From Rhodocyclales bacterium (GTDB lineage: Bacteria > Pseudomonadota > Gammaproteobacteria > Burkholderiales > Rhodocyclaceae): a stretch of DNA of 64,000 nucleotides. The number at the start of each line of letters is the position of its first letter. Within the stretch, counting starts at the first letter, position 1. Below, piece after piece: positions 45,481 through 64,000 of the stretch. A program made the position numbers and the translations under genes. Where the stretch lies: positions 1 through 64,000 of the forward strand of contig JAPLQX010000040.1 in the NCBI GenBank assembly GCA_026399435.1. The letters run 5' to 3'. Under the pieces are notes generated by a model. It was not told the origin of the DNA. It ran no database searches and saw nothing but the letters and a program-made list of their open reading frames with translations.

Positions 45481-45498
45481 GGTACGGCGCCTGATTCC

Positions 45499-45760: not shown

Positions 45761-45789
45761 TTGACGTGCGCCGTCGAATTGAAAATAAT
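45761..45789 (+). promoter_or_regulatory. Promoter of the catabolic gene cluster
   Basis: TTGACG (45761-45766), 17 bases, then AATAAT (45784-45789). The transcript would have a leader of about 75 bases before the M24-like gene. Confidence 0.7.
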
Positions 45790-45804
45790 GCAATCGATTG
45801 CATT
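45787..45804. promoter_or_regulatory. LacI-type operator
   Basis: AATGCAATCGATTGCATT is a perfect 18-bp palindrome with the central CG typical of LacI/GalR operators. It overlaps the -10 element. The LacI-family gene at 51029-52069 is the obvious candidate to bind it, which would make the operon autoregulated. Confidence 0.72.
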
Positions 45805-45871
45805 GCCGCGCGTCCGCGCCGGCTGATTGCTGCATATCCGAATTCTGCCGCGTCGCAAAGAGGAGATGGAC

Positions 45872-47176
45872 ATGAAGAAAATAATCCGCCACGAGCCGAA
45901 GATCATCCTGCCGGACGACATCAATCCGCGCCATAACTGGGACCGGCCGATCCAGGCGCCGGGTCAGATGCAGGTGGATTTCGAGGAGCGCGTCAATTTC
46001 CAGCGCCTGCACAAGTATCGGCTGGCGAGGGTGCGCCAGGCCCTGGCGGCATCGGACCTGGGTGCGCTGCTGTGTTTCGACCAGCACAACATCCGCTACA
46101 CCAGCAGCACGGTCATCGGCGAGTGGGCGCGCGACAAGCTGACCCGCTATTCCCTGCTCACCGGCAACGGCGAGCCCTACGTCTGGGACTTTGGCTCGGC
46201 TGCCAAGCACCACCGCCTGCACGCGCCCTGGTTGTGCGAGGACCACTGCAAGGCCGGGATGCTCGGTCTGCGCGGCGCGGTGCATACCGACGCCGGGCTG
46301 TTCCGCGCGGCGGCGGAAGAAATCAAGGCCATCCTCGACGAGGAGGGAGTCGGCGACATGCCGGTCGGCGTCGATGTCATCGAACCGCCGATGATGTTCG
46401 AGTTGCAGAAGGCCGGCATCGATGTCCGCGACGGTCAGCAGGTCATGCTCGACGCGCGCCAGATCAAGAGTACCGACGAGATCACGCTGCTCAACATTGC
46501 GGCATCGATGGTCGATGGCGTCTATCAGGACATCTACGAAGCGCTCAAGCCCGGCATCCGCGAGAACCAGATCGTGGCGATGGCCAACAAGCGCCTCTAC
46601 GAAATGGGCTCCGACTGCGTCGAGGCGATCAACTCCATTTCCGGCGAGCGCTGCTGCCCGCATCCGCACAACTTCACCGACCGCCTGATCCGCCCGGGCG
46701 ACCAGGCCTTCTTCGACATCATCCATTCCTTCATGGGCTACCGCACGTGCTACTACCGCACCTTCAGCGTCGGTCGCGCGACACCGCCGCAGGTGACGGC
46801 CTACAAGAAGGCGCGGGAATGGATGGACCGGGCGATCGAGCAGATCAGGCCGGGCGTCACCACCGACAAGATCGCACTGGCCTTCCCGACCGCCCAGGAG
46901 ATCGGCTTCAACAGCGAGATGGAGGCTTTTGGCCTCAATTTCTGCCACGGCCTCGGCCTTGGCCTGCACGAGCGGCCGATCATTTCCCGCCTGACCTCGC
47001 TTCAGGCGCCGATGGAGCTGACCCTGGGCATGGTCTTCGCGGTGGAGACCTATTGCCCGGCGACCGACGGCGTCTCGGCCGCGCGCATCGAGGAGGAGGT
47101 GGTGGTAACGCCGCGCGGTGCCCAGATCATCTCGCTGTTCCCGGCAGAAGAACTGCCGATCGCCAACCGCTACTGA
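45872..47176 (+). CDS. M24-family (aminopeptidase P/DddP-like) protein with altered metal site
   Basis: A 434-residue pita-bread-fold protein. The N-terminal domain includes LLCFDQHNIRYTSST. In the C-terminal domain four of the five usual metal ligands are visible: Asp282, His359 (CHGLGLGLHERP), Glu392 (VFAVETYC) and Glu407 (RIEEEVVVT). The second Asp, 11 residues after the first, is replaced by Cys293 in GYRTCYYRTF. M24 relatives include peptidases, creatinase, ectoine hydrolase and the DMSP lyase DddP; this one probably acts on a small metabolite. The start at 45872 is six bases after AGGAG. First gene of the cluster. Confidence 0.82.
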   Translation: MKKIIRHEPKIILPDDINPRHNWDRPIQAPGQMQVDFEERVNFQRLHKYRLARVRQALAASDLGALLCFDQHNIRYTSSTVIGEWARDKLTRYSLLTGNGEPYVWDFGSAAKHHRLHAPWLCEDHCKAGMLGLRGAVHTDAGLFRAAAEEIKAILDEEGVGDMPVGVDVIEPPMMFELQKAGIDVRDGQQVMLDARQIKSTDEITLLNIAASMVDGVYQDIYEALKPGIRENQIVAMANKRLYEMGSDCVEAINSISGERCCPHPHNFTDRLIRPGDQAFFDIIHSFMGYRTCYYRTFSVGRATPPQVTAYKKAREWMDRAIEQIRPGVTTDKIALAFPTAQEIGFNSEMEAFGLNFCHGLGLGLHERPIISRLTSLQAPMELTLGMVFAVETYCPATDGVSAARIEEEVVVTPRGAQIISLFPAEELPIANRY

Positions 47177-47191
47177 CCGGAAAGCATATTC

Positions 47192-48136
47192 ATGACAAAC
47201 GCAAAGGCAGGCAAGGCCAGGATCGGCTGGATCGGCATCGGCCGCATGGGTTACGAAATGGCCGGGCGCCTGGCCAGGGGCGGCTGCGACATCGTGGTGT
47301 GGAACCGCACCCGCGCCAAGGCGGAGCCGCTGGCCGCCTATGGCGCCCGCATTGCCGACAGTCTTGCCGACCTCGCCGGCTGCGACATCGTATTCACCAT
47401 GGTGTCCACCTACGACGACGTGCATGAGGTTCTGCTCGGACCCGAAGGGTTGCTGGCCCAGGGCCGCGGCAAGGTGCCGCGCATGGTGGTCGAGTGCTCG
47501 TCGATATCCCTCGAAGGCTCGGCGGAACTGCGTGCGGCCCTGGCCAAGGGCGGCACGCTGATGCTGGCGGCGCCGGTGTCCGGCAATGCCAAGGTGATCA
47601 AGGCCGGCAAACTGAGCTTCGTCACCTCGGGGCCGCGCGCCGTTCATGACGAATGCCTGGCGCTGCTGGAAATGATCGCCCCGGCGGGTGCCGCCTATGT
47701 CGGCGAAGGCGAACTGGCGCGCATCGCCAAGATCTGCCACAACGTTTTCCTTGGCGTGGTCACCCAGTCCCTCGCGGAGATCACCGTGCTGGCGGAAAAG
47801 GCGGGCCTGCCGCGCCATGCCTTCCTCGGCTTCATGAACAGCAGCGTGATGGGATCCGTGTTCACCCGCTACAAGACGCCGGCCTTCGTGAATCTGGATT
47901 TCAAGGTGACGTTCACGCCCAAGCTGCTGCGCAAGGACATGGATCTGGGTCTGGATGCCGGCCGCCGCTTCGAGGTGCCGCTACCGCTCGCGTCGATTAC
48001 CCGCGACCAGATCCAGACCATGATCGGCAACGGCTACACCGAAGAGGATTTCTCCACGCTGCTGGTGATGCAGGCCAAGGCGTCGGGCCTGGAACTCAAA
48101 TCGGAGAACGTGGCAGTCGGCGACGGCCTGGCCTGA
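47192..48136 (+). CDS. NAD(P)-dependent beta-hydroxyacid dehydrogenase (3-hydroxyisobutyrate dehydrogenase family)
   Basis: A 314-residue dehydrogenase. The Rossmann motif is IGWIGIGRMGYEMA, with WNRTRAKAEPL following. The substrate segment is APVSGNAKVIKAGKL, where the family often has SGG, and the catalytic Lys lies in ARIAKICHNVF. It would oxidise a beta-hydroxyacid or reduce a semialdehyde. It starts 15 bases after the M24-like gene, and the two may act on consecutive intermediates. Confidence 0.88.
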   Translation: MTNAKAGKARIGWIGIGRMGYEMAGRLARGGCDIVVWNRTRAKAEPLAAYGARIADSLADLAGCDIVFTMVSTYDDVHEVLLGPEGLLAQGRGKVPRMVVECSSISLEGSAELRAALAKGGTLMLAAPVSGNAKVIKAGKLSFVTSGPRAVHDECLALLEMIAPAGAAYVGEGELARIAKICHNVFLGVVTQSLAEITVLAEKAGLPRHAFLGFMNSSVMGSVFTRYKTPAFVNLDFKVTFTPKLLRKDMDLGLDAGRRFEVPLPLASITRDQIQTMIGNGYTEEDFSTLLVMQAKASGLELKSENVAVGDGLA

Positions 48137-48185
48137 GTCGACTTTCCTGGAAATACGAACGCAATGACAACGGAGGAGGCAACAC

Positions 48186-49169
48186 ATGTCTAACTGGCTC
48201 AAACCCCTGCTGCTGGCGACTGTTCTGGTGGCATTTTCCGCGCAAGCCCAGCAGCCGATCGTCATCAAGTTTCCCCACGTCGTATCCGAAAAGTCGCCGA
48301 AGGGTCAGGCGGCCCTGGTGTTCAAGAAGCGCGCCGAGGAGATCCTCAAGGACCGGGTCAGGGTCGAGGTCTATCCGAACTCCCAACTGATGGGAGATGA
48401 CGAATCCCTCGAAGCCCTGGCGCTGGGCGACATCCAGATGATCGCCATTTCGCTTTCGAAGTTCGACCGATTGACCAAGAAGTTCCAGTTGTTCGACCTG
48501 CCCTTCCTGTTCAAGGACATGGCGGCGGTCGATCGCTTCCAGGCGTCCCCCGCCGGCAAGGCCCTGCTGACAGAGATGGAACCCAAGGGCTATCTGGGTC
48601 TCGCCTACTGGCATAACGGCCTCAAGCAGATGACCGCCAACAAGCCGCTGATCAAGCCCGAGGACGCGGCCGGCCTGAAGTTCCGCATCCAGGAATCGGA
48701 CGTGCTGGAAACGCAGTTTCGCACCCTCAAGGCGAATCCGCAGAAGATGGCATTGGGCGAGGTGTATCAGGCCCTGATGAACGGCGTCATCGATGCCCAG
48801 GAAAACACCTGGTCCAATATCTACCGGCTGAAATTCTATGAAGCGCAGAAACATATCAGCGAGACCAACCATGGCGTGATCGACTACCTGCTGACGGTAA
48901 ATGCCCGCTGGTGGAAAGGCCTGCCGGCCGACATCCGCGCCGGTCTGGAGCAGGCGGTCAGGGAGGCGACGGCCCAGAACGACGCCAATTCGGAGAAGTC
49001 CAATCTGGCCGACCGCGAACTGGTGGTCAAGAGCGGCAAGACCACGATCGCCAAATTGACGCCGGAGCAGCTCGCCGCGTGGCAGAAGGCCATGCAGCCG
49101 GTGTGGGTGCGTTACGAAAAGGAAATCGGGCCCGACCTGATCAAGGCGGCGCAGTCGGCCAACAAATAG
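48186..49169 (+). CDS. dctP: TRAP transporter substrate-binding protein (DctP type)
   Basis: A 327-residue periplasmic solute receptor. A Sec signal peptide ends in SAQAQQ (cleavage about residue 22). DctP features are FPHVVSEKSPKGQAALVFKK, YPNSQLMGDDESLEALALGDIQM and the ligand-binding Arg in GLKFRIQESDVLE. The region DAQENTWSNIYRLKFYE resembles C4-dicarboxylate receptors, so a carboxylate ligand is expected. It is followed by its own dctQM genes. Confidence 0.92.
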   Translation: MSNWLKPLLLATVLVAFSAQAQQPIVIKFPHVVSEKSPKGQAALVFKKRAEEILKDRVRVEVYPNSQLMGDDESLEALALGDIQMIAISLSKFDRLTKKFQLFDLPFLFKDMAAVDRFQASPAGKALLTEMEPKGYLGLAYWHNGLKQMTANKPLIKPEDAAGLKFRIQESDVLETQFRTLKANPQKMALGEVYQALMNGVIDAQENTWSNIYRLKFYEAQKHISETNHGVIDYLLTVNARWWKGLPADIRAGLEQAVREATAQNDANSEKSNLADRELVVKSGKTTIAKLTPEQLAAWQKAMQPVWVRYEKEIGPDLIKAAQSANK

Positions 49170-49185
49170 GCCTCGCCGACGGCAT

Positions 49186-49737
49186 ATGCGCAAGTTGCTC
49201 GATCGCCTGGAAGAGGTGCTGATCGCCTTCTTCATGCTGGGCATGACCCTGCTGACATTTTCACAGGTGATCATGCGCTACGGCTTCAACTCGGGCTGGA
49301 TGTGGTCGCTGGAGGCCACCACCATGATGTTCGGCTGGCTGCTGATGATCGGCATCTCCTACGGCATGCGCGAACACGCCCATCTCAATGTCGATGCCTT
49401 CGTCAACCTCCTGCCGCGCCCGTGGCGGCGGCGGCTCAGCCTGCTGGCGATCGCCTGTTGTTTCGTCTACGCGGGGCTGATGATCTGGGGCGCCTGGGGG
49501 CTGGAGCAACGTCTGTTCCGGCTGGGCACCGATGCCCGCGATCTGCCGGTGCGGCGCTGGATGCTGATGTCGATCCTGCCGATCGGTTTCGCCTTGCTCT
49601 GCTACCGCCTGATCCAGGTGGCCGCCGAAATCGTGCGCGGCGAGCGCGACATGCTCGGCAGCGCCCATGGCGCGGTGCCGGAAATGGAGCTTGCCGCACC
49701 CGATGCACCGGCGGCGGAAAAGAAGGCGCCGGCATGA
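49186..49737 (+). CDS. dctQ: TRAP transporter small membrane subunit (DctQ type)
   Basis: A 183-residue inner-membrane protein with four helices. The typical motif SLEATTMMFGWLLMIGISYGMREHAHLNVD lies in the second quarter. It pairs with DctM to form the sodium-coupled permease. The stop overlaps the dctM start by four bases. Confidence 0.9.
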   Translation: MRKLLDRLEEVLIAFFMLGMTLLTFSQVIMRYGFNSGWMWSLEATTMMFGWLLMIGISYGMREHAHLNVDAFVNLLPRPWRRRLSLLAIACCFVYAGLMIWGAWGLEQRLFRLGTDARDLPVRRWMLMSILPIGFALLCYRLIQVAAEIVRGERDMLGSAHGAVPEMELAAPDAPAAEKKAPA

Positions 49738-51026
49738 GCATTCTCTTCCTGTTCTCCGTCATGCTCCTGACCATGCTGATCGGCGTGCCGATCGCGATGT
49801 CGCTTGGCCTGACCAGCGTCCTGACCCTGCTGCTGTTCGGCCAGGAGTCGCTGGCGGCGCTGGCGCTGAAGTTCTTCCAGGCGACCCAGAAGTACGAACT
49901 GCTGGCGGTGCCGTTCTTCATCCTGGCCGGTTCCTTCCTGACCACCGGCGGCGTCGCCCGGCGCATGATCGACTTTGCCAATGCCGCCGTCGGCCACTTC
50001 CGCGGCGGCCTCGGCCTGGCGGCGGTGTTCGCCTGCATGCTGTTCGCGGCAGTGTCCGGTTCGAGCCCTGCGACGGTGATCGCGGTGGGCTCGATTGCCA
50101 TCGCCGGCATGGTGCGCAACGGCTATACGATGAAGTATTCGGCGGGCATTATCTGCAATGCCGGTACCCTGGGCATCCTGATCCCGCCGTCCATCGTCAT
50201 GGTGGTTTATGCGTCGGCGACGGAGACATCGGTCGGGCGCCTGTTCATCGCCGGCGTGATTCCGGGCATCGTGCTTGGCCTGATGCTGATGGTGGCGATC
50301 TACGTTTCGGCACGCATCCTGGACATTCCGCGCCTGCCATGGACCGGCTGGCGGCAACTATTCGTTTCCGGCGCGCGTGCCGTCTGGGGCCTGCTGCTGA
50401 TCGTCATCGTCCTCGGCGGCATTTACCTCGGCGTGTTCACGCCGACGGAAGCGGCGGCGGTGAGCGCGGTCTATGCCTTCCTCGTCTCGGTGTTCGTCTA
50501 TCGCGACCTGAAGTGGCAGGACACCGGCAAGGTGCTGGTCGACAGCGGCCGCATCACCATCATGCTGATGTTCATCATCAGCAATGCCGGGCTGTTCGCC
50601 TATGTGCTGACCTCGCTGCAGATTCCGCAGGAAATAACCAATGCCATGATCGGCGCCAATATCACGCCGGTGATGTTCCTGCTTCTGATCAACGTCGCGC
50701 TGCTGATCGCCGGCAATTTCCTCGAACCCACATCCATCGTGCTGATCATGGCGCCGATCATTTTCCCGCTGTCGCAACGGCTGGGCATCGATCCGATTCA
50801 CCTGGGCATCATCATGACCGTGAACATGGAGATCGGCCTGGTGCATCCGCCGGTGGGGCTCAATCTGTTCGTCACCGCGGGCGTCACCAAATTGCCGGTG
50901 TGGGAAGTGGTGAAGGCTGCGCTGCCCTGGCTGGGGGTGCTGCTGGTCTTCCTGGTGATCGTGACCTATGTTCCGGTGCTCTCGCTGTACCTGCCGGATC
51001 GGGTTTTTGGCCCGCTGAGTTCCTGA
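49734..51026 (+). CDS. dctM: TRAP transporter large permease subunit (DctM type)
   Basis: A 430-residue inner-membrane protein with about 12 helices. SGSSPATVIAVGSIAIAGM and GTLGILIPPSIVMVVYA are the conserved substrate/ion-site loops, and MEIGLVHPPVGLNLFVT the second inverted-repeat loop. The start at 49734 gives the usual hydrophobic N terminus and an ATGA overlap with dctQ. Confidence 0.93.
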   Translation: MSILFLFSVMLLTMLIGVPIAMSLGLTSVLTLLLFGQESLAALALKFFQATQKYELLAVPFFILAGSFLTTGGVARRMIDFANAAVGHFRGGLGLAAVFACMLFAAVSGSSPATVIAVGSIAIAGMVRNGYTMKYSAGIICNAGTLGILIPPSIVMVVYASATETSVGRLFIAGVIPGIVLGLMLMVAIYVSARILDIPRLPWTGWRQLFVSGARAVWGLLLIVIVLGGIYLGVFTPTEAAAVSAVYAFLVSVFVYRDLKWQDTGKVLVDSGRITIMLMFIISNAGLFAYVLTSLQIPQEITNAMIGANITPVMFLLLINVALLIAGNFLEPTSIVLIMAPIIFPLSQRLGIDPIHLGIIMTVNMEIGLVHPPVGLNLFVTAGVTKLPVWEVVKAALPWLGVLLVFLVIVTYVPVLSLYLPDRVFGPLSS

Positions 51027-51028
51027 CC

Positions 51029-52069
51029 ATGAAGCGCAACCGGGCCGCCACGCTCAAGGATATCGCCGCCGCACTGGGCGTCCATTCCTCCACCGTGTCG
51101 CGGGTGATGAATCCGGCGACCCGCGACATGGTCGGCGCGGACGTCGCCGCACGCGTGCTCGAAACGGCGGCGGCTCTGGGCTATCGCCCGAACCGCATGG
51201 CGGCCAGCCTGCGCACGCGCCGCTCCCACACCATCGGCGTGGTCCTGCCCGACATCACCAATCCGGTATTTCCGCCGATACTGCTCGGCATCGAGCAGGT
51301 GCTGGCCGAGGCCGGTTATGTGGCGCTGGTGGCGAATGCCGGCAACGAACCGACCCACCAGCAATACGTCGTCGAGCAGATGCTGGCGCGGCAGGTGGAT
51401 GGCCTGATTCTGGCGACGGTGACGCGGCGCGACCCGGTGGTGGAACGCTGCCTCGAACAGGGCGTGACCGTGGTGACGGTCAATCGTACCGTTGGCACCG
51501 GCGGCACCGGCGGGACCGGCGCGGTGCCGGGGGTGGTCAGCGATGACAAGGCGGGCATGGAATTGACCGTGGCCCACCTGACGGGCCTTGGTCACCGCCA
51601 CATTGCACATATCACCGGCCCGCAGAACGTTTCCACCGGCATGCTGCGCAAGAGCGGTTTCGTCAAGGCGATGCAGGCCCGCGGCCTCGAACCTGTCGTC
51701 GTCGCCGGCGCCGCCTACACCCGCGAGGCGGGCAAGACCGCTTGCCGCGAAATCCTGGACCGTTTTCCCGGGATAACCGCCGTCGCTGCCGGCAACGATC
51801 TGGTGGCGATGGGTTGCTACGACGCCCTGGCCGAAGCGGGCGTGCGCTGCCCCGGGGATATGTCCGTGGTCGGCCATAACGACATGCCGATGGTGGACAT
51901 GTTCTCGCCGCCGCTGACCACCATCCGCATCCCCCATCACTGCATGGGAGCGCGGGCCGCCCGCCTGGTGCTCGATCACATCGATGGTCGCCACGAGGGC
52001 TCGCCGCATGTGGTGCTCCAGCCGGAACTCATCGTGCGCTCATCGACGGCGCCGCCGCGGCGTGCATGA
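51029..52069 (+). CDS. LacI-family transcriptional regulator
   Basis: A 346-residue repressor. The HTH is TLKDIAAALGVHSSTVSRVMN, followed by a hinge helix (RMAASLRTRRS) and a periplasmic-binding-protein-like effector domain (HTIGVVLPDITNPVFPPIL). It lies two bases after dctM, in the middle of the unit it probably controls through the operator at 45787-45804. An unusual feature is a threefold Gly-Thr-Gly repeat (about residues 156-164) in a surface loop. Effectors of this family are mostly sugars or related small molecules. Confidence 0.92.
   Translation: MKRNRAATLKDIAAALGVHSSTVSRVMNPATRDMVGADVAARVLETAAALGYRPNRMAASLRTRRSHTIGVVLPDITNPVFPPILLGIEQVLAEAGYVALVANAGNEPTHQQYVVEQMLARQVDGLILATVTRRDPVVERCLEQGVTVVTVNRTVGTGGTGGTGAVPGVVSDDKAGMELTVAHLTGLGHRHIAHITGPQNVSTGMLRKSGFVKAMQARGLEPVVVAGAAYTREAGKTACREILDRFPGITAVAAGNDLVAMGCYDALAEAGVRCPGDMSVVGHNDMPMVDMFSPPLTTIRIPHHCMGARAARLVLDHIDGRHEGSPHVVLQPELIVRSSTAPPRRA
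51494..51520 (+). repeat. Triple 9-bp tandem repeat in the lacI-type gene
   Basis: GGCACCGGC occurs twice, followed by GGGACCGGC, encoding three Gly-Thr-Gly units. It keeps the frame. Confidence 0.7.
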
Positions 52070-52112
52070 GAGCGGCCCATTTTTCCAATTTCAACGAAGC
52101 TCGAGACTGACC

Positions 52113-53561
52113 ATGAACTACGAACTCTCTACGCTGCACAAGGATCTCTACATCGGCGGAAAGTGGCGACCGGCGGCCGACGGCGGGCGCTTCGACGTGC
52201 TCGATCCGGGGACGGAGGAAGTGCTCGGCGACGTTGCCGATGCCACGGTGGAGGATGCCCTCGATGCGGTGGCGGCAGCCCATGCCGCCGGGCCGGCCTG
52301 GGCCGCGACGGCGCCGCGCGAGAGGGCCGAAATCCTGCGCCGTGCCTATGAACTGTTGATTCGCCACAAGGACGAATTCGCCCGGCTGATGACCCTGGAA
52401 AACGGCAAGGTGCTGGCCGAAGCCCGCGGCGAGGCGGTCTATGCCGCCGAGTTCCTGCGCTGGTTCGCCGAGGAAGCGGTGCGCATCGGCGGCGAGATAT
52501 CGACCGCGCCGTCGGGCGCCAACCGCATCATGGTGTTGCGCCAGCCGATTGGCGTCGCCGTCTTCGTCACGCCCTGGAACTTCCCGGCGGCCATGGCCAC
52601 GCGCAAGATCGGCCCGGCCCTGGCCGCGGGTTGCACGGTGGTGCTGAAACCGGCCAAGGAAACGCCGCTGACCGCGCTGGCCATGGCGTCCCTGTTCGAG
52701 GAAGCGGGCGTGCCGCCCGGCGTGATCAACGTCGTTCCCACGCGCCGTTCCTCGGCAGCGGTGGCCGCCATGCTGCGCGATCCGCGCGTGCGCAAGCTGT
52801 CATTCACCGGCTCGACGGAGGTCGGCCGCGTGCTGCTGGCCCAGGCAGCGGAGAACGTGGTCAAGTGCTCGATGGAACTGGGAGGCAACGCACCCTTCAT
52901 CGTTTTTGCCGACGCCGATCTGGATCAGGCCGTGGCGTCCGCGATGGTGGCGAAAATGCGCAACGGCGGCGAGTCCTGCACCGCCGCCAACCGTTTCTAT
53001 GTGGAACGGCCGGTCGCTGCGGAATTCGGCCGCCGCTTCGCCGCGGCGATGGCCCAGGTGCGCATCGGCTACGGTCTCGACGAGGGCGCGCAACTCGGGC
53101 CGCTGGTCAACGCCGCGACGCGCAATAAGGTCGCCGAACTGGTGGCCGATGCGGTGCAGAACGGCGCCGAATTGCTCACCGGGGGCAAGGCGCGTCCCGG
53201 CCGGGGCTTCTACTACGAGCCGACGGTGTTGTCCGGCGTAGCCAAGGATGCGCGCATCCTGCGTGAGGAGATTTTCGGACCGGTGGCGCCCATCGCCGTG
53301 TTCGATAGCGAGGAGGAAGTCATCGCGCTGGCCAACGATACCGTGTTCGGCCTCGTCTCCTTCGTACACACCCGCGATCTTGCGCGCGCGATGCGCGTCG
53401 CCGAGCGCATCGAATCCGGCATGGTCGGCATCAATCGCGGCGTGGTGTCGGACCCTGCGGCGCCCTTTGGCGGCTGGAAGCAAAGCGGCGTGGGCCGCGA
53501 GGGAGCCCACGACGGCCTGCTCGAATACCTCGAATCGAAATACATCGCCGTGAGCTGGTAG
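52113..53561 (+). CDS. NAD(P)-dependent aldehyde dehydrogenase (succinate-semialdehyde/lactaldehyde type)
   Basis: A 482-residue enzyme. VTPWNFPAAMATRKIGPALAAGCTVVLKPA is the coenzyme region, Glu255 in MELGGNAP is the general base and Cys289 in NGGESCTAAN the nucleophile. AANRFYV and PFGGWKQSGVGREGAHDGLLEYLESKYI fit the GabD/AldA group. Expected role: oxidation of a hydroxyaldehyde or semialdehyde produced by this pathway. The start at 52113 was chosen because translation from here begins with the usual YIGGKW region at about residue 13. Confidence 0.9.
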   Translation: MNYELSTLHKDLYIGGKWRPAADGGRFDVLDPGTEEVLGDVADATVEDALDAVAAAHAAGPAWAATAPRERAEILRRAYELLIRHKDEFARLMTLENGKVLAEARGEAVYAAEFLRWFAEEAVRIGGEISTAPSGANRIMVLRQPIGVAVFVTPWNFPAAMATRKIGPALAAGCTVVLKPAKETPLTALAMASLFEEAGVPPGVINVVPTRRSSAAVAAMLRDPRVRKLSFTGSTEVGRVLLAQAAENVVKCSMELGGNAPFIVFADADLDQAVASAMVAKMRNGGESCTAANRFYVERPVAAEFGRRFAAAMAQVRIGYGLDEGAQLGPLVNAATRNKVAELVADAVQNGAELLTGGKARPGRGFYYEPTVLSGVAKDARILREEIFGPVAPIAVFDSEEEVIALANDTVFGLVSFVHTRDLARAMRVAERIESGMVGINRGVVSDPAAPFGGWKQSGVGREGAHDGLLEYLESKYIAVSW

Positions 53562-53622
53562 CCCGGGCGAACTCGTCTGCAAGCATGAATCTGACACGGC
53601 CCAACATGAAAAAGGAATACCC

Positions 53623-55806: not shown

Positions 55807-55822
55807 CAGCGAGGACATCGCC

Positions 55823-56362
55823 ATGAACCACACCAACAAGGGAATACCCGGATTGCGTGGCACCGACCACATCGGTTTCACCGTGCCCGATCTGGAGCAG
55901 GCCGCCGCCTTCTTTGTCGACGTGCTCGGTTGCGAAGCCTTTTACGACCTGGGTCCGTTCAAGTCGGACGAGGACTGGATGCAGGCGCACCTCAACATCC
56001 ACCCGCGGGCGGTGATGAAAAAACTGCGCTTCTTTCGTTGCGGCAACGGCTCGAACTTCGAGATCTTCGAATACGAGTCACCCGACCAGGTCCCGACCCA
56101 GCCGAAGAACAGCGACGTCGGCGGCCACCACCTGGCCTTCTACGTGGACGACATGGACAGTGCCCTGGCCTACCTGCGCGGCAAGGGCGTGCGCATCCTG
56201 GGCGAGCCCACGCGCTCTGCCAACGCCAGTGCAGGTCAGACCTGGGTGTACTTTCTGGCGCCGTGGGGCATGCAGTTCGAACTGGTGAGCTACCCGCAAG
56301 GCAAGGCCTACGAGCGCGAGACCGCCCGCCGCCTGTGGCACCCGGCGCACCCCGAACGCTGA
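55823..56362 (+). CDS. VOC (glyoxalase/dioxygenase) family protein
   Basis: A 179-residue protein of two beta-alpha-beta-beta-beta modules. Candidate metal ligands are His in TDHIGFTV, Glu in FEIFEYE, His in GGHHLAFYV and Glu in FELVSYP. Members include glyoxalase I, methylmalonyl-CoA epimerase and extradiol dioxygenases. It is placed between E1 and E2 of the oxoacid dehydrogenase, which suggests that it isomerises or epimerises an intermediate. The specific reaction is unknown. Confidence 0.82.
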   Translation: MNHTNKGIPGLRGTDHIGFTVPDLEQAAAFFVDVLGCEAFYDLGPFKSDEDWMQAHLNIHPRAVMKKLRFFRCGNGSNFEIFEYESPDQVPTQPKNSDVGGHHLAFYVDDMDSALAYLRGKGVRILGEPTRSANASAGQTWVYFLAPWGMQFELVSYPQGKAYERETARRLWHPAHPER

Positions 56363-56380
56363 ACTTATCGAGGAGATACT

Positions 56381-57568
56381 GTGCCGATCGAAATCAAGCT
56401 GCCGGCGGTGATTGCCGGAATGACCGAAGGTGTGGTCGCACGCTGGCTCAAGGCGCCGGGCGATGCGATCGCCGCCGGCGAGACGATTGCCGAGGTGGAG
56501 ACCGACAAGGCGGTGCTGGAAATCACCGCCGATGCCGCCGGTGTTCTCGGCCGCATACTGGTTGAGGCGAACGGCATTGCCGTGCCGGTCGGCACGCCGA
56601 TCGGCCTGGTGTTGCTGGCAGGCGAATCCGCTGCGGCGCTTGAAGGCGCCGGCGGCGCACAGTCGAAGCCGCCTGTCGCCGCGCCGCCGCGCGCCGCGCC
56701 CGCTGCGTCTACGCCCGCGGCGGGACGGGTCTTTGCCAGCCCGCTGGCGCGCCGCCTCGCGGTGGAACGCGGTATGGAACTGGGCGCGCTTCAGGGCAGC
56801 GGTCCTCACGGCCGCATCGTCAGGCTCGATGTGGAACGGGCGGGGCCGTCTGCCACAGCCGCTGCAGTTCCCCTGACGGCACCGGGCGGCTATACCGAGC
56901 AGCCCTTGAGCCAGATGCGCAAGGCCATCGCCCGCCGCCTGACCGAGGCCAAGCAAAGCGTGCCGCACTTCTACCTCGGCATCGACTGCGAGCTCGACCG
57001 GCTGCAGGCGCTGCGTGCGGAAATGACTGCCGCCGGCAAAAAGATTTCGCTCAACGACTGCATTGTTCGCGCCGTGGCTCTGGCGCTGCGTCAGGTGCCG
57101 GCAGCCAATGCCGCCTGGGCCGGGGATGCCATCCGCTTCCATCATGACGTCGATATCGCCGTGGCCGTCGCCACCCCCAAGGGTTTGCTGACGCCGGTGC
57201 TGCGCCGCGCCGACGCCAAGCCCCTGAGCGTGCTGGCGCGTGAACTGAAGACCCTTGCCGAACGGGCGCGCGACGGCAAGCTCAAGCCCGAAGACTACCA
57301 GGGCGGCGGCTTCACGATCTCCAATCTCGGCATGTACGGCGTGCGCGAATTCGCCGCCATCATCAACCCGCCGCAGGCCTGCATCCTCGCCGTCGGCGCG
57401 GCCGAACGCCGCCCCGTGGTGCGCGGCGAAGCCATCGTTGCGGCAACCGTGATGAGCTGCACGCTGTCGGTGGACCATCGCGCGGTCGATGGCGCGGTCG
57501 GCGCGCAATTTCTCGCGGCCTTCAGGCAACTGATCGAGGCGCCGCTGTCGCTGCTGAAATGGGAATGA
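56381..57568 (+). CDS. Dihydrolipoamide acyltransferase (E2)
   Basis: A 395-residue E2. An N-terminal lipoyl domain has the lipoylated Lys43 in VETDKAVLE. After a Pro/Ala linker comes the peripheral subunit-binding domain (FASPLARRLAVERGMELGALQGSGPHGRIV), then the catalytic domain with SVDHRAVDGAVGA (active His/Asp). The start is GTG at 56381, ten bases after AGGAG. It transfers the acyl group from E1 to CoA. Confidence 0.93.
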   Translation: MPIEIKLPAVIAGMTEGVVARWLKAPGDAIAAGETIAEVETDKAVLEITADAAGVLGRILVEANGIAVPVGTPIGLVLLAGESAAALEGAGGAQSKPPVAAPPRAAPAASTPAAGRVFASPLARRLAVERGMELGALQGSGPHGRIVRLDVERAGPSATAAAVPLTAPGGYTEQPLSQMRKAIARRLTEAKQSVPHFYLGIDCELDRLQALRAEMTAAGKKISLNDCIVRAVALALRQVPAANAAWAGDAIRFHHDVDIAVAVATPKGLLTPVLRRADAKPLSVLARELKTLAERARDGKLKPEDYQGGGFTISNLGMYGVREFAAIINPPQACILAVGAAERRPVVRGEAIVAATVMSCTLSVDHRAVDGAVGAQFLAAFRQLIEAPLSLLKWE

Positions 57569-57572
57569 GGCC

Positions 57573-58973
57573 ATGAGCAAGCGCTTCGACCTGATCGTCA
57601 TCGGCGCCGGCCCCGGTGGCTACGTCGCCGCCATCCGTGCGGCCCAGCTGGGCCTCTCCACCGCCATCGTCGAGCGCGAGCATCTGGGCGGCATCTGCCT
57701 CAACTGGGGTTGCATTCCGACCAAGGCGCTGCTCAGGAGCGCCGACGTCTACCGGCAGATGATGCACGCGGCGGATTACGGGCTGCATGCCAGCGGGATT
57801 GGCTTCGATATCCCGGCCATGGTCAAGCGTTCACGCGATGTCTCGGCACGCCTGCAGTCCGGGGTCAAGCAGTTGCTGGCGAAGAACAAGGTCACCGTGC
57901 TGGAGGGCAGTGGCCGTCTTGCAGGCAAGGGCAGCGTGACGGTAACCCCGGCCCAGGGAACAGCGCAGACCCTGGTCGCGGCGAACGTGATCATTGCCAC
58001 TGGCGCTCGGCCGCGGCTGCTGCCGGGCCTCGAGCCCGACGGGCGGCTGGTATGGACCTACCGCGAGGCCATGACGCCGCAGAGCCTGCCCAAGTCGCTG
58101 CTGGTGATCGGCTCGGGCGCCATCGGCATCGAATTCGCCAGCTTCTACCGCACGCTGGGCAGCACGGTTACGGTGGTCGAAGTGCTCGACCGCATCCTGC
58201 CGCTGGAGGACGAAGAGATCAGCGGGCTGGCGCGCAAGTCCTTCGAGAAGCAGGGCATGACGATACTCACCGGTGCCACCGTCAAGTCGCTGAAGCGCCA
58301 TGCGGACAGTGTCACGGCGGCGATCGAGGCGGGCGGCCGCATGGTCGAGAGCGAGTTCGAACGCGTCATCGTCGCTGTCGGCACCAGCGCCAACGTCGAG
58401 AACCTGGGTCTGGAAAAAACGGCGGTGCGCATCGAGAAAGGGCGCATCGCGACGGATGAATGGTGCGCCACCGCCGAGCCCGGCGTCCATGCCATCGGCG
58501 ACGTCGTCGCCGGCCCCTGGCTCGCGCACAAGGCGAGCCATGAAGCCATCCTGTGTGTCGAGCATATCGCCGGCTTGGCCTCGGCGCACCTCCTCGACCG
58601 CGAGCGCATTCCCGGCTGCACCTACTGCCATCCCCAGGTGGCCAGCATCGGTCTGACCGAGCAGCAGGCACGCGCCAGGGGCCGCGAAGTGAAGGTCGGC
58701 CGCTTTCCCTTTGTCGCCAATGGCAAGGCGATAGCGATGGGTGAAACCGAGGGCCTGGTCAAGACCGTGTTTGACGCCGGGAGCGGCGAACTGCTCGGCG
58801 CCCACATGATAGGTGCGGAGGTGACGGAGCTGATTCAGGGTTTCGCTCTCGGCAAGACCTTGGAAGCGACCGAGGCCGAGTTCTTTGCTACGGTGTTTCC
58901 CCATCCGACGCTGTCGGAGGCGATGCACGAAGCCGCGCTGTCCGCCTTCGGCCGGGCGATCCACTATGCCTAG
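57573..58973 (+). CDS. lpd: Dihydrolipoamide dehydrogenase (E3)
   Basis: A 466-residue flavoprotein. The FAD motif is IVIGAGPGGYVAAIRAAQLG, the redox disulfide Cys42/Cys47 in GGICLNWGCIPTK, the NAD motif VIGSGAIGIEFASF and the C-terminal His-Glu pair in HPTLSEAMHEA. It reoxidises dihydrolipoyl E2 with NAD. It begins four bases after E2. Confidence 0.95.
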   Translation: MSKRFDLIVIGAGPGGYVAAIRAAQLGLSTAIVEREHLGGICLNWGCIPTKALLRSADVYRQMMHAADYGLHASGIGFDIPAMVKRSRDVSARLQSGVKQLLAKNKVTVLEGSGRLAGKGSVTVTPAQGTAQTLVAANVIIATGARPRLLPGLEPDGRLVWTYREAMTPQSLPKSLLVIGSGAIGIEFASFYRTLGSTVTVVEVLDRILPLEDEEISGLARKSFEKQGMTILTGATVKSLKRHADSVTAAIEAGGRMVESEFERVIVAVGTSANVENLGLEKTAVRIEKGRIATDEWCATAEPGVHAIGDVVAGPWLAHKASHEAILCVEHIAGLASAHLLDRERIPGCTYCHPQVASIGLTEQQARARGREVKVGRFPFVANGKAIAMGETEGLVKTVFDAGSGELLGAHMIGAEVTELIQGFALGKTLEATEAEFFATVFPHPTLSEAMHEAALSAFGRAIHYA

Positions 58974-59021
58974 GCCGATGGACAGGCAAGCCTTGGCCGC
59001 ACCGGGCGCGAGCTCCGGATA

Positions 59022-60434
59022 ATGAGCGGCCTGGCGAACATCCTCGAGCTCAAGCGCGACCTTGCCGCATTCCTCGGCGAGCGAGTGACGGACGCGCCAG
59101 GCGTATGCAAGGCCCACGGCGGCAGCGAGTCCTACCACGACAGCCTGCCGGCCGACTTGGTCGCCTTCCCGGATTCCACCGCAGAGGTTCAGCTTGTCGT
59201 CAGGCACTGCGCGCAGCACCGGGTGCCCATCGTTCCCTATGGCGTGGGAACCTCGCTCGAAGGCAATGCGCTGACGCCGCAGGGTGGCCTTTGTCTTGAC
59301 CTGGGCCGGATGGATCGGGTAATCGAAATCAATGGCGCGGACATGGATTGCCGCGTGCAGCCGGGCATCACCCGCAAGACGCTAAACGCGGCCCTGCGCG
59401 ACAGCGGACTGTTCTTTCCCATCGACCCCGGCGCCGATGCCTCGATTGGCGGCATGGCCTCGACGGGGGCCTCGGGAACCATGGCGGTGCGCTACGGCAC
59501 GATGCGCGAAAACGTTCTCGGCCTCGAAGTCGTGCTCGCCGACGGCCGGAAAATCCGCACCAGCCGGCGCGCGCGCAAGTCTGCCGCCGGCTACGACCTG
59601 ACGCGCCTGTTCGTCGGCAGCGAAGGCACGTTGGGCGTCGTCACCGAGGTGACGCTTCGGCTCCAGCCGTTGCCGGAAGCGGTGTCCGCGGCGGTGTGCG
59701 CCTTTCCGTCGCTGGCTGCCGCGGTCGACACGGTGATTGCCGCGTTCCAGAGCGGCATCCCGGTGGCGCGCATCGAGTTGCTGGACGAGACCATGATGCG
59801 CGGCATCAATGCCTACGCAAAGCTCAACTACGCGGAGCAGCCGACCCTGTTCTTCGAGTTTCACGGCACCGCTGCCGGCGTCGCCGAGCAGGCGGAACGA
59901 ATTCAGGTGCTCGCTGCCGATCACGGCGCGGCGGATTTCCGCTGGGCGACGCGACCGGAGGATCGCAGCCGGCTCTGGCATGCACGCGACAACACCCTTT
60001 ACGCCGGCCTCGGCCTGCGTCCCGGCGCGCGGGCCATGATCACCGACGTCTGCGTTCCTGTTTCCCGGCTGGCCGAATGCCTGCTCGAAACCCAGCGCGA
60101 CATCGCCGCCTCGGGACTGATCGCGCCGATCGTCGGCCATGTCGGCGACGGCAATTTCCACTTGCTGATTCTCATCGATCCGGCCAGCGCCGAAGAACTG
60201 GCGACTGCCGAGGCGCTGCACGCGCGGATGGTGCGGCGGGCCCTGGCGCTGGACGGAACCTGCACCGGCGAGCACGGCATCGGCCTGGGCAAGATCGATT
60301 TTCTGGAGGATGAACTCGGCCCGGCGGTCGACGTGATGCGCATGATCAAGCGCTCGCTCGATCCGCACAACCTGATGAACCCGGGAAAGGTTCTGCGCCT
60401 TGCTGCCTCGCCGGTCCGGGAACTGGTCGGATGA
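59022..60434 (+). CDS. FAD-linked D-2-hydroxyacid oxidase/dehydrogenase (GlcD/Dld-like)
   Basis: A 470-residue VAO-family flavoprotein. FAD contacts are VPYGVGTSLEGNALTPQGGLCLDL and the segment DPGADASIGGMASTGASGTMAVRYGT. The C-terminal domain has GHVGDGNFHLLI and CTGEHGIGLGKI, with metal-binding His residues. The sequence fits D-lactate dehydrogenase (cytochrome) or glycolate oxidase subunit D acting alone. Within this unit it could turn a 2-hydroxyacid into the 2-oxoacid used by the E1-E2-E3 complex. The stop overlaps the ABC ATPase start by four bases. Confidence 0.87.
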   Translation: MSGLANILELKRDLAAFLGERVTDAPGVCKAHGGSESYHDSLPADLVAFPDSTAEVQLVVRHCAQHRVPIVPYGVGTSLEGNALTPQGGLCLDLGRMDRVIEINGADMDCRVQPGITRKTLNAALRDSGLFFPIDPGADASIGGMASTGASGTMAVRYGTMRENVLGLEVVLADGRKIRTSRRARKSAAGYDLTRLFVGSEGTLGVVTEVTLRLQPLPEAVSAAVCAFPSLAAAVDTVIAAFQSGIPVARIELLDETMMRGINAYAKLNYAEQPTLFFEFHGTAAGVAEQAERIQVLAADHGAADFRWATRPEDRSRLWHARDNTLYAGLGLRPGARAMITDVCVPVSRLAECLLETQRDIAASGLIAPIVGHVGDGNFHLLILIDPASAEELATAEALHARMVRRALALDGTCTGEHGIGLGKIDFLEDELGPAVDVMRMIKRSLDPHNLMNPGKVLRLAASPVRELVG

Positions 60435-61948
60435 CTGCCGTGAGCGCCCCGATTCCCGGGATTCCCCTGCTCGAACTGCGCGGCATCAGCAAGCAGTTCC
60501 CGGGCGTCAAGGCGCTCGACGATGTGTCCTTCGCCGTGCATCCCGGCGAGGTGCACATGCTGCTCGGCGAAAACGGTGCCGGCAAATCATCGCTGATGAA
60601 AGTTCTCTGCGGTGCCTATCGCGCCGACGCCGGGGAATTCTTCCACCGCGGCGAGAAGGTCGCCATCACCTCGCCCGCCGACGCGCGGAAGCTGGGCATC
60701 GCGGTGATATTCCAGGAGTTCTCGCTGGTGCCCTATCTCGACATCGCGCAGAACATCTTCCTCGGCCGCGAGTTTCGCGGACGTATTCCGGGCAGCGTCG
60801 ACCGCCGGCGCATGCATGTCGAGGCGAGACGGATACTCGACCTGATCGGGCTCGAGTTGCCGACACAGACTCCGCTGCACACGCTCGGCGTGGCCCAGCA
60901 GCAGATGGTCGAGATCGCCAAGGCCTTGTCGCAGAATGCGCGCATCCTGGTCATGGACGAACCGACCGCCGCGCTCTCGGACCGCGAGACGGAACGCCTG
61001 TTCGCGATGATCCGGCAACTCCAGGCGGAGGGGGTGGCGATCATCTACATCTCGCACCGGATGGCGGAGGTGTTCGCTCTTGGCGATCGCATCACGGTGT
61101 TGCGCGACGGCCGCAAGGTGGGCTCGTTGCTGCCGCGCGAAGCCACCCCGGACGAACTGGTGCGGATGATGGTGGGGCGCAGCGTGGACATGAGTTATGC
61201 GCGCGAATTCCGCAGCGAGTTCGGCGACACCGTTCTCGAGGTGAAGGGATTGCACTCGGACAACGGCATTTCGGACATCGACCTGACGGTGCGCGCCGGG
61301 GAAATCGTCGGCCTCTCCGGTTTGGTCGGAGCCGGCCGCAGCGAAGTGGCGCGGGCGATCTTCGGCGCCGATGCGGTGACGGCGGGCGAGGTGCGCGTCT
61401 ACGGCAAGCTGCACCGTGGCGGGCCGGACCAGGCAGTGGCCGCAGGCATCGGCCTGATTCCGGAGAACCGCAAGAGCGAAGGCCTGGCGCTGATCCGCTC
61501 GGTGGCGGACAACCTGAACATCGCCGCGCTGCGCCGCAGATTCTCCAGTCGCGTGTTCGGGCCGCGGCGGGCGCGGGCCATCGCCCGCGCCCTGGTCGAC
61601 AAGCTGCGCATCGCCACGCCGACCACGCTGCGTCCGGTCCAGGTGCTCTCCGGCGGCAACCAGCAGAAGGTGGTGATCGGCAAGTGGCTGGAAGCCGAGT
61701 CGCGCCTGTTCATTTTCGACGAGCCGACGCGCGGCATCGACGTCGGCGCCAAGGCCGAGATCTTCGCCCTGATCGACGCCCTGGTCCGCGATGGCGCCGC
61801 CGTGCTGCTGATCAGCTCGGAGCTGTCCGAGATCGTCAACGTCTGCGATCGCGCCTATGTGATGTGCCAAGGCCGCATCACCGGGCATCTGGCGCGCCAC
61901 GAAATTTCGGAGGAAGGCATCTTGAAACTGGCCATGCATCATGAGTAG
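60431..61948 (+). CDS. Sugar-type ABC transporter ATPase (duplicated)
   Basis: A 505-residue protein with two tandem ABC domains, as in RbsA/MglA. The first has Walker A GENGAGKSSL, signature LGVAQQQMVEIAKAL and Walker B ILVMDEPTAAL. The second has the degenerate GLVGAGRSEVARAIFG, signature LSGGNQQKVVIGKWL and IFDEPTRGIDVGAKAEI. It drives import of a sugar or sugar-like solute with the two permeases downstream. Confidence 0.93.
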   Translation: MTAVSAPIPGIPLLELRGISKQFPGVKALDDVSFAVHPGEVHMLLGENGAGKSSLMKVLCGAYRADAGEFFHRGEKVAITSPADARKLGIAVIFQEFSLVPYLDIAQNIFLGREFRGRIPGSVDRRRMHVEARRILDLIGLELPTQTPLHTLGVAQQQMVEIAKALSQNARILVMDEPTAALSDRETERLFAMIRQLQAEGVAIIYISHRMAEVFALGDRITVLRDGRKVGSLLPREATPDELVRMMVGRSVDMSYAREFRSEFGDTVLEVKGLHSDNGISDIDLTVRAGEIVGLSGLVGAGRSEVARAIFGADAVTAGEVRVYGKLHRGGPDQAVAAGIGLIPENRKSEGLALIRSVADNLNIAALRRRFSSRVFGPRRARAIARALVDKLRIATPTTLRPVQVLSGGNQQKVVIGKWLEAESRLFIFDEPTRGIDVGAKAEIFALIDALVRDGAAVLLISSELSEIVNVCDRAYVMCQGRITGHLARHEISEEGILKLAMHHE

Positions 61949-62912
61949 CCAGATCGCTGTCGGCAACAGGTTGGTCGTCGCGCCCTGGCGCGCGGTGCTG
62001 GCGCGAACGCCCGGCGTCGCCTGGATCCTCGGGCTGTTGCTGCTCGTCTTCGCGGCGACCAGCAGGGATTTCCTGTCCGCCGGCAATCTGCTCAACGTCG
62101 GGCAGCAATCGGTGATCCTGCTGATGCTGGCGCTGCCGATGACGCTGATCATCATGACCGAAGGCTTGGATATCTCGATGGGCGCCGTGCTGACGCTGGC
62201 CGGTGTCATGCTGGCCTGGGTCATGGTCCGTTACGGTTCGCTGCCGCTGGCCCTGGCGGCGTCGCTGGCCACCGGCCTCGCCTTCGGCATCGTCAACGGC
62301 TCGCTCGTGGCATTGCTGAAAATGCCGTCCTTTGTCGTCACCCTCGGCACCATGGGCGCGGCGCAGGGACTGGCCCTGATCGTCACCGACGGCCAGAGCA
62401 TCGTCGGCGTTGGCGCCACGGTGGAATCGTTCTACAGCGGGCGCCTGGCGGGAGTTCCGCTGCCGCTGCTGCTCGGCGCCGGCAGCTATCTGACATGCCA
62501 CCTGCTGCTGTATCACACCCGCTTCGGCAACTACGTCTTCGCACTGGGCGGCAATCCCGAGGCGCTGAAACTGGCCGGCGTGCGCGCCGACCTCTACCTG
62601 ATCGGCGTCTACGCCCTGGGCGGCCTGATGGCGGGACTGGCTGCGCTGCTGCTGACGGCGCGCATGAGTTCGGGCCATCCGACCGCAGCGATCGGCATGG
62701 AGTTCGACGCCATCGCGGCCGTGGCCGTCGGCGGCACATCATTCGAACGCGGCAAGGGTTGGCTGTTCGGCACCCTGCTCGGCGTGATCGCGGTCGGCGT
62801 GCTGCGCAACGGGCTGAATCTGCTCAGCGTGCCTTCGTCGGCCCAAGTGGCCTGCATCGGCATCCTGGTCATCCTGGCCCTGTTCATCGACGGCTGGAAG
62901 GAGCGCAGATGA
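61941..62912 (+). CDS. Sugar-type ABC transporter permease 1
   Basis: A 323-residue RbsC-like inner-membrane protein with about eight to ten helices. TEGLDISMGAVLTLAGV and the cytoplasmic coupling segment NPEALKLAGVRADLYLIGVYALGG are typical. The start overlaps the ATPase end by eight bases, and the stop overlaps the next permease start by four bases. Confidence 0.92.
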   Translation: MSSQIAVGNRLVVAPWRAVLARTPGVAWILGLLLLVFAATSRDFLSAGNLLNVGQQSVILLMLALPMTLIIMTEGLDISMGAVLTLAGVMLAWVMVRYGSLPLALAASLATGLAFGIVNGSLVALLKMPSFVVTLGTMGAAQGLALIVTDGQSIVGVGATVESFYSGRLAGVPLPLLLGAGSYLTCHLLLYHTRFGNYVFALGGNPEALKLAGVRADLYLIGVYALGGLMAGLAALLLTARMSSGHPTAAIGMEFDAIAAVAVGGTSFERGKGWLFGTLLGVIAVGVLRNGLNLLSVPSSAQVACIGILVILALFIDGWKERR

Positions 62913-63904
62913 GCGCCGACAGCAAGGTGACCGGTCTCTGGCTGGCCTTCCGATCGGGGGCGGTGGCGGCGGACCTGCGCACCATCGGCTACCGCCTCAG
63001 CGCTGCGCTGGTACTGTGCGTGGTTCTGGCATTCGCCAGCGATGCGTTCCTCCATTCCAACAACCTGCTCAATGTGCTGCGCCAGGCGAGCCTGCTGTTC
63101 CTCCTCGCCTCCGGGCTGACGCTGGTGATCCTGACGGCGGGCCTCGATCTCTCGGTCGGCGCCAATGTCGGACTGTCCGCCTGCATCGCGGCGACCGTGA
63201 TCAAAAGCAGCGGCTCGGTGCTGCTGGGGTCGGCGGCCGGCGTCGGCTGCGGACTGGCGATCGGCCTCGCCAACGGCCTGATGGTGGCGGTGATGCGCCT
63301 GCCGCCCTTCATCGCCACCTACGGCATGCTCTGGGTGGCCCACGGCATCACCTACTGGTACATGGCCGGTACCACCGTCTATGGTTTTCCGCAGTCGTTC
63401 CGCGCTCTGGGCAGCGGCTACTTTCTGGGTGTACCGATCCCCGTCTACATGATGTTCGGCTTTCTCGCGCTCGGCACTTTCTTTGCCCAGCGTACGACCT
63501 ACGGCCAGGAAATCTATGCCATCGGCGCCAACCGCGAGGCCGCCAGGCTCTCCGGCGTCCCCGTCGCCCGGCGCCTGATCCTGGTCTATGCCGTCAGCGG
63601 CGCCATGGCCGGCCTCGCCTCGATCGTGTTCCTGGCACGCATGAATTCAGCCGAGGGGGACATAGGCGAAGGCCTGACCCTGCCGGCCATCGCCGCCGCG
63701 CTGATCGGCGGTACGTCCCTGTTTGGCGGTGTCGGCACGGTTTCCGGCACGCTGATCGGTGCCTTGATCCTGACGCTGGTGCTCAACGGCATGAACTTGC
63801 TGACGATTAACGCCAGCTGGCAGCCGATGGTCACCGGCATCATCGTCATCCTCGCCGTTCTGTTGGACACGTTCGCCAGAAAACGTGGAGAAGCCCGCAA
63901 TTAG
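62909..63904 (+). CDS. Sugar-type ABC transporter permease 2
   Basis: A 331-residue RbsC-like permease with TAGLDLSVGANVGLSACIA and the coupling segment NREAARLSGVPVARRLILVYAVSG. Two different permeases in one system imply a heterodimeric channel. The start at 62909 gives an ATGA overlap with permease 1. Confidence 0.92.
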   Translation: MSADSKVTGLWLAFRSGAVAADLRTIGYRLSAALVLCVVLAFASDAFLHSNNLLNVLRQASLLFLLASGLTLVILTAGLDLSVGANVGLSACIAATVIKSSGSVLLGSAAGVGCGLAIGLANGLMVAVMRLPPFIATYGMLWVAHGITYWYMAGTTVYGFPQSFRALGSGYFLGVPIPVYMMFGFLALGTFFAQRTTYGQEIYAIGANREAARLSGVPVARRLILVYAVSGAMAGLASIVFLARMNSAEGDIGEGLTLPAIAAALIGGTSLFGGVGTVSGTLIGALILTLVLNGMNLLTINASWQPMVTGIIVILAVLLDTFARKRGEARN

Positions 63905-63945
63905 AAGTCCAGGCTGATGCACATTCATACACAAAGGAGACCCAC

Positions 63946-64000
63946 ATGAAAAAAAGCCAGTTCTGCCTCGCTGCCGCAATTACCGTTCTCGCTGCTTCGG
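63946..64000 (+). CDS. ABC transporter substrate-binding protein, 5' end only
   Basis: After AAAGGAGA a reading frame opens MKKSQFCLAAAITVLAAS, a typical signal peptide, and runs off the window. Position directly after the permeases makes a periplasmic sugar-binding protein likely. Only 18 codons are visible. Confidence 0.65.
   Translation, partial: MKKSQFCLAAAITVLAAS

Follow-up and report, generated by a model that had tools for sequence, protein, structure and literature searches.

A probable LacI-associated operon opened by a cysteine-altered M24-fold protein in a Rhodocyclales bacterium, with a probable role in carrying a hydroxy-acid to acyl-CoA

Which compound is broken down by a run of genes that joins a peptidase-like M24 protein to a beta-hydroxyacid dehydrogenase, two importers and a complete 2-oxoacid dehydrogenase complex is the question raised by a locus of a Rhodocyclales bacterium. 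The window, that is, the whole stretch of 64,000 nucleotides analysed, comprises bases 1-64000 of contig 40 (83,983 bases) of an assembly of 2.88 Mb that is 81% complete. On its plus strand, 16 genes run from position 45872 to beyond the window end, with no internal stop in any of the frames. The answer preferred here, with somewhat better than even confidence, is that these genes form a LacI-repressed, substrate-induced catabolic operon converting a hydroxy-acid, or a conjugate of it, to acyl-CoA. The grounds for it, as read from the DNA, are the gene set and its order, an operator-like palindrome at its head, the recurrent pairing of the M24 gene with a gene of the 3-hydroxyisobutyrate dehydrogenase (HIBADH) superfamily, and intact active-site motifs in the HIBADH and VOC proteins. 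The genes, assigned to families with Pfam and NCBIfam, are the following.

45872..47176, plus strand: M24-fold enzyme of 434 residues, Cys293 replacing a metal-ligand Asp (PF00557, 119.7 bits)
47192..48136, plus strand: beta-hydroxyacid dehydrogenase of the HIBADH/tartronate semialdehyde reductase superfamily, 314 residues (PF03446, PF14833; PVSGN motif)
48186..49169, plus strand: TRAP receptor DctP, C4-dicarboxylate type by similarity (PDB 4o94, 403.8 bits; 9dsy, 395.3 bits)
49186..49737, plus strand: TRAP small permease DctQ (PF04290)
49734..51026, plus strand: TRAP large permease DctM (PF06808; TIGR00786, 469 bits)
51029..52069, plus strand: LacI-family regulator (PF00356, PF13377)
52113..53561, plus strand: aldehyde dehydrogenase (ALDH), nearest to succinate-semialdehyde dehydrogenases (PF00171, TIGR01780)
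53623..55806, plus strand: fused E1 alpha-beta thiamine diphosphate 2-oxoacid dehydrogenase, 727 residues (PF00676, PF02779, PF02780)
55823..56362, plus strand: VOC metalloprotein of glyoxalase/methylmalonyl-CoA epimerase fold (PF13669)
56381..57568, plus strand: E2 dihydrolipoamide acyltransferase of mitochondrial pyruvate dehydrogenase (PDH) type (TIGR01349, 450.5 bits)
57573..58973, plus strand: E3 dihydrolipoyl dehydrogenase (TIGR01350, 564.9 bits, cut-off 408.8)
59022..60434, plus strand: FAD D-2-hydroxyacid dehydrogenase of the type of mitochondrial D-lactate dehydrogenase (LDHD), a GlcD/Dld gene (PDB 8jdc, 529.6 bits)
60431..61948, plus strand: RbsA/AraG-type double ATPase (family models)
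61941..62912, plus strand: first Rbs-type permease, RbsC (family models)
62909..63904, plus strand: second Rbs-type permease, RbsC (family models)
63946..64000, plus strand: start of an RbsB-type receptor continuing to contig position 64899 (family models)

The intergenic gaps are, in order, 15, 49, 16, -4, 2, 43, 61, 16, 18, 4, 48, -4, -8, -4 and 41 bases, and the three -4 values are ATGA overlaps (DctQ/DctM, LDHD/RbsA and RbsC/RbsC). Fifteen of the genes are complete inside the window, and RbsB is found in full at contig 40:63946-64899. A sequence-only reading of this DNA had described 16 same-strand genes separated by no more than 61 bases, with several ATGA overlaps, and had taken them for a single catabolic unit with two importers and a full oxoacid dehydrogenase complex; the layout was borne out (gaps from -8 to 61), every gene that it named is present, on the plus strand and free of internal stops, and the single unit with an additional 2-oxoacid dehydrogenase complex is supported. 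Since related clusters recur in other genomes, chance does not account for the arrangement.

The proposed route would run as follows. The TRAP system, of C4-dicarboxylate type, and the Rbs-type importer would take up a small polar carboxylate and perhaps also a bulkier conjugate. The M24 protein, with its Cys-altered metal site, would act not as a peptidase but by cleaving a C-N, C-O or C-S bond of the imported compound, freeing a hydroxy-acid. HIBADH would turn a primary hydroxyl into a semialdehyde, from which ALDH would make the acid, and the LDHD-type flavoenzyme would oxidise a D-2-hydroxyl to give a 2-oxoacid. The VOC protein may enolise, epimerise or decarboxylate the oxo intermediate. 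Finally, the fused E1 with E2 and E3 would generate an acyl-CoA entering central metabolism.

Membership of the first protein in the M24 fold is clear, its score on PF00557 (119.7 bits) lying far above the gathering cut-off of 23. The best named family model is DddP (NCBIfam NF043017), which is matched at 114.4 bits, below its cut-off of 600, and the best PDB match is likewise a DddP (4s01, 76.4 bits). The metal ligands of DddP are given in an excerpt of PMC4108388 as Asp295, Asp297, Asp307, His371, Glu406 and Glu421. In a HMMER alignment to 4s01, with positions counted by hand, Asp282, His359, Glu392 and Glu407 of the M24 protein fall on Asp295, His371, Glu406 and Glu421, whereas Asp297 faces a two-residue gap and Asp307 is replaced by Cys293. 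This cysteine is kept in 106 of 109 aligned rows, some of which are one sequence drawn from two collections, and is present in three haloarchaeal proteins (35-37% identity). The three rows that lack it are paralogues at 22-25% identity, one of which has Asp at this position. Because of the gap and the cysteine, the clade falls outside DddP and, going by its ligands, also outside the canonical di-metal M24 enzymes; as judged from its residues, the protein is not a standard peptidase. A dimethylsulfoniopropionate (DMSP) lyase pathway of the DddP kind was ruled out on the two altered ligands together with the score, and the ectoine hydrolase DoeA on 54.6 bits against a cut-off of 613 (TIGR02993). 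No match to the M24 protein was found in the phage collection at E 1e-20. At two related loci (L125 and L126) another, distant M24 gene, 22-25% identical to the first, lies a few genes away from it; that of L126 scores 79.6 bits on the ectoine hydrolase model, with a cut-off of 613.

Of the genes scored, HIBADH is the one that accompanies M24 most constantly. In a sample of 300 genomes of the order, the M24 clade occurs in 26. The HIBADH clade is present in 24 of these 26 and in two of 50 genomes that lack M24, those that come first by number (Fisher p 2.6e-15); counted by genus, it is found in 9/10 positives against 2/49 negatives (p 4e-8), both p values being inflated by shared ancestry. In 18 of the 26 genomes the two genes lie within 7 kb, in five they are on different contigs, in one they are 64 kb apart and in two HIBADH is lacking. 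The protein carries both NAD-binding superfamily domains (PF03446 and PF14833) and stays below all the equivalog cut-offs listed (best 150.7 against 340.75), including that of 3-hydroxyisobutyrate dehydrogenase (TIGR01692, 130.1 bits, cut-off 291.6). Lys180 and Asn184 are invariant in 29 of 29 rows. The usual motif in this superfamily is PVSGG; here it is PVSGN. The VOC protein likewise falls short of the methylmalonyl-CoA epimerase model (TIGR03081, 43.5 bits, cut-off 114.95), and its H/E/H/E positions, which we take to be the ligand positions, are invariant in all ten rows.

The regulation proposed for the operon is based on two predicted elements ahead of M24.

45761..45789, plus strand: sigma-70-like promoter match, TTGACG-17-AATAAT, 10 of 12 consensus matches
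45789..45802, no strand: predicted LacI-type operator-like sequence TGCAATCGATTGCA, a perfect palindrome

The palindrome TGCAATCGATTGCA touches the promoter-like site, lies 69 bases ahead of the M24 start and occurs as a single exact copy in the 81%-complete assembly. The motif TGCAAnCGnTTGCA, which is the palindrome with variable core bases, was scanned over 80 related loci (1,188,970 bases) and has eight copies there. Four of them stand 40-104 bases ahead of the start of the M24 match (L009, L012, L023 and L026), where 0.065 copies would be expected within 120 bases before M24 in the 80 loci; those of L023 and L026 are the exact palindrome. Another copy lies 72 bases ahead of LacI (L084), two are found 308 and 345 bases ahead of TonB-receptor genes adjoining LacI (L008 and L011), and one is within a gene (L043). 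Since the motif precedes M24, LacI and TonB-receptor genes across loci, a single regulon seems to take in LacI, M24 and, at some loci, an outer-membrane receptor, with LacI as the putative binding protein.

The related loci also indicate which genes travel with M24. The survey covered the nearest 80 of 224 confirmed M24 loci, many of which are truncated; within 8.5 kb of it were found HIBADH (at least 55% identity) at 47 loci, E1 at 21, E2 at 17, LacI at 7, ALDH (at least 55%) at 6, TRAP genes at two and LDHD at one. At L011 the order is divergent LacI, M24, E1 alpha, E1 beta, ALDH, E2, HIBADH, DctP (74%), DctQ and DctM, and the TRAP system thus belongs to the cluster, as this locus carries M24 with the same TRAP genes. 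LDHD also belongs to it, because in two other genomes, at L127 (which shares a contig with L082) and L128, an LDHD homologue (66% and 64%) stands between M24 and E1. A gene-neighbourhood search, which had been suggested along with the sequence-only reading, brings M24, a HIBADH-like gene, fused E1 and VOC together in two plasmid clusters. That of Streptomyces sp. YIM 121038 has these genes and E2 in about 8 kb, with ALDH and a divergent LacI; that of Paenarthrobacter ureafaciens SD-1 has the same five in about 19 kb. Both differ from the operon in carrying other transporters and monooxygenases, and the latter also in its amidase and a HIBADH only 29% identical. The spread of M24 is patchy, as it is absent from all eight same-family genomes listed in the order sample and, in a class-wide sample, occurs in one of 274 genomes, the source genome itself.

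On several related plasmids the M24 gene has further neighbours. It lies near RidA and flavin reductase genes on Paenarthrobacter plasmids (L088 and L100), with amidase, cupin and monooxygenase genes also at L088, and at L100 the flavin reductase, about 2 kb away, is annotated SulR (sulfonamide). Breakdown of sulfonamide heterocycles, an idea taken from this annotation, was not adopted: an excerpt of PMC10873849 describes such heterocycles as dead-end products, and none of the genes in the other annotated M24 stretches examined carries a Sul annotation. Vitamin B6 pathway II was a further candidate that was not taken up. Roseobacter plasmids (L090, L099 and L104-L106) carry M24, split E1, two separate E2-like genes and an ALDH of succinate-semialdehyde dehydrogenase type, with an Rbs-type importer in a divergent block and an E3 annotated in L099 and L106.

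The predicted acyl-CoA-forming complex is an extra one, because the housekeeping AceE of this genome lies elsewhere (1529.7 bits, cut-off 859.9) and a split E1 is also present on contig 46. Like the pyruvate and acetoin dehydrogenase complexes, it is complete in E1, E2 and E3, and its E2 exceeds the cut-off of the PDH-type model TIGR01349 (450.5 bits against 445). It differs from them in its fused E1 alpha-beta, in the VOC gene between E1 and E2 and in standing apart from AceE. The E1 linked to M24 is fused in the operon's own group, Streptomyces and Paenarthrobacter, and split in betaproteobacteria and roseobacters. In an E1 tree of 51 rows, placing the eight fused rows linked to M24 takes three changes of label, even when the best-supported branches are assumed; a single gain with two losses would fit as well, and some long branches leave the deep joins unsure. 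That M24 recurs beside E1 of different lineages suggests that a 2-oxoacid or a similar compound arises in the pathway itself.

It may tentatively be proposed, with rather less than even confidence, that the proteins of the M24 clade form a new non-peptidase enzyme, one carboxylate of the pita-bread metal site having given way to a conserved thiolate, and that they catalyse the first step of an undescribed catabolic pathway. This pathway would have spread through Proteobacteria, Rokubacteria and Actinobacteria and, with related enzymes, also haloarchaea, and the M24 product would pass to HIBADH and, in many hosts, to 2-oxoacid dehydrogenase complexes that were recruited separately. If so, the database label Xaa-Pro peptidase would conceal a catabolic pathway whose first enzyme is new. 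The Cys-for-Asp exchange would be a simple marker setting the clade apart both from DMSP lyases and from those M24 proteins in which the Asp is retained, and the operon would offer two receptors and a LacI regulator for ligand screening as well as a candidate for orphan enzyme activities. In agreement with the sequence-only reading, which knew of no pathway with this set, no description of the gene set or of the M24 clade was found in open-licence full texts, weak evidence of absence as the hits were judged mostly by listing. The parts are of known kinds, and the combination and the Cys-altered clade look new.

Several points weigh against the proposed operon function. The type of reaction attributed to M24 is predicted from fold and residues. 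E1 was not seen near M24 at 59 of the 80 loci, many of them short, and LDHD is rare there. HIBADH of at least 55% identity is not near M24 at 20 of the 50 loci that extend at least 6 kb downstream; 13 of the 20 are from Rokubacteria by record title, and two others of them (L055 and L062) have relatives at 32-34% identity only. The transporters vary from locus to locus and so do not point to a single substrate. The promoter match is weak when taken alone, because shuffled sequence yields a mean of 2.2 such sites where one was found in 45000-64000, and internal promoters may be present within the operon. Fused E1 occurs in five of the 300 genomes of the order and is not tied to M24, since four of the five lack it. 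Moreover, the substrates of the E1 complex could be acyloins or diketones rather than 2-oxoacids.

This last point leads to the alternative that survives best, which is nonetheless judged unlikely: cleavage of an acyloin or diketone as in acetoin catabolism, where the fused E1 with E2 and E3 would split a hydroxyketone to acyl-CoA and an aldehyde, VOC would isomerise the ketol and ALDH would remove the aldehyde. The pairing of E1 with ALDH recalls the aco operons. Records of Pseudomonas oryzihabitans, Caballeronia and a Citricoccus plasmid combine fused E1, E2 and a nearby VOC gene (between E1 and E2 in the first two) with adjoining SDRs, some SDR-like by eye, and no M24 in the stretch examined; such units keep acyloin cleavage possible. 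An SDR near a roseobacter M24 cluster is also best matched as acetoin reductase, below the cut-off (256.5 against 304.35). Conversely, the E2 of the operon reaches 69.2 bits on the acetoin model (NF011457, cut-off 307) as compared with 450.5 on the PDH-type model, and M24, HIBADH and LDHD would be left without a role.

A further alternative is the lactaldehyde-lactate-pyruvate-acetyl-CoA route of the sequence-only reading, with an aldehyde oxidised through a D-lactate-like acid and M24, HIBADH and VOC as accessories. One of its steps has support: the GlcD/Dld gene is nearest to LDHD (529.6 bits, query residues 16-458 out of 470), by which near-full-length similarity it may be classed as LDHD-type, and it reaches 333.7 bits on the GlcD model, against a cut-off of 567.9. 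It differs from mitochondrial LDHD in its setting, an operon that also holds M24 and the E1, E2 and E3 genes. Oxidation of a D-2-hydroxyacid to a 2-oxoacid is plausible because of this closeness. The E2 above the PDH-type cut-off suits the route as well, and a VOC protein of glyoxalase fold could feed it with D-lactate. The whole route is, by contrast, quite improbable. The genome already has its own AceE; ALDH is nearest to succinate-semialdehyde dehydrogenases (TIGR01780, 576.1 bits, below the cut-off of 646.35); and, near M24, LDHD is found at one of the 80 loci and HIBADH at 47. M24 and HIBADH remain unexplained by it. The other suggestion of that reading, a less ordinary substrate, is supported.

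Breakdown of pantothenate or pantoate, an orphan route, is a speculative and very improbable explanation, fitted after the fact. Its steps come from old Pseudomonas literature, and each step would find one gene here: M24 as pantothenase, HIBADH as pantoate 4-dehydrogenase, ALDH as aldopantoate dehydrogenase, LDHD for dimethylmalate oxidation and E1-E2-E3 as 2-oxoisovalerate dehydrogenase. Methylmalonate-semialdehyde dehydrogenase is needed downstream, and it passes its cut-off in 26/26 M24-positive against 26/50 M24-negative genomes; malic-enzyme-like and tartrate-dehydrogenase genes also lie near some M24 genes. In favour may further be counted that the pantothenase protein is reported as unknown in an excerpt of PMC10393543 and that TRAP ligands listed in part of PMC5812351 include pantoate/D-erythronate. 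Against this, DctP of the window is of C4-dicarboxylate type by similarity (TIGR00787, 261.9 bits, cut-off 175.05), and the accessory genes of other loci (monooxygenases, RidA, amidase) hint at different substrates. The activity is known from Pseudomonas, whereas in a class-wide sample M24 is found only in the source genome (1/274).

Beyond the end of the window, an old-yellow-enzyme-type (flavin) oxidoreductase gene (contig 40:64997-66100, plus strand, 97 bases past RbsB) and a DoxX gene (contig 40:66177-66566, plus strand, after a gap of 76 bases) may belong to the operon. Directly upstream of it, on the minus strand, lies a wax ester synthase/diacylglycerol acyltransferase gene (43463-45070). 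At L065 a gene of the tartrate-dehydrogenase family (6620-7675; 562.2 bits, cut-off 470.4) stands a few genes from M24, and the same cluster is seen at L071, L076, L077 and L079, all five being Rokubacteria loci. A Rhodococcus opacus plasmid (L093) has a malic-enzyme-like gene (9021-10220) and a VOC gene of the window type (64% identity) near M24. Six other loci (L015, L019, L022, L024, L058 and L124) carry a cobalamin-independent methionine-synthase-like gene near M24.

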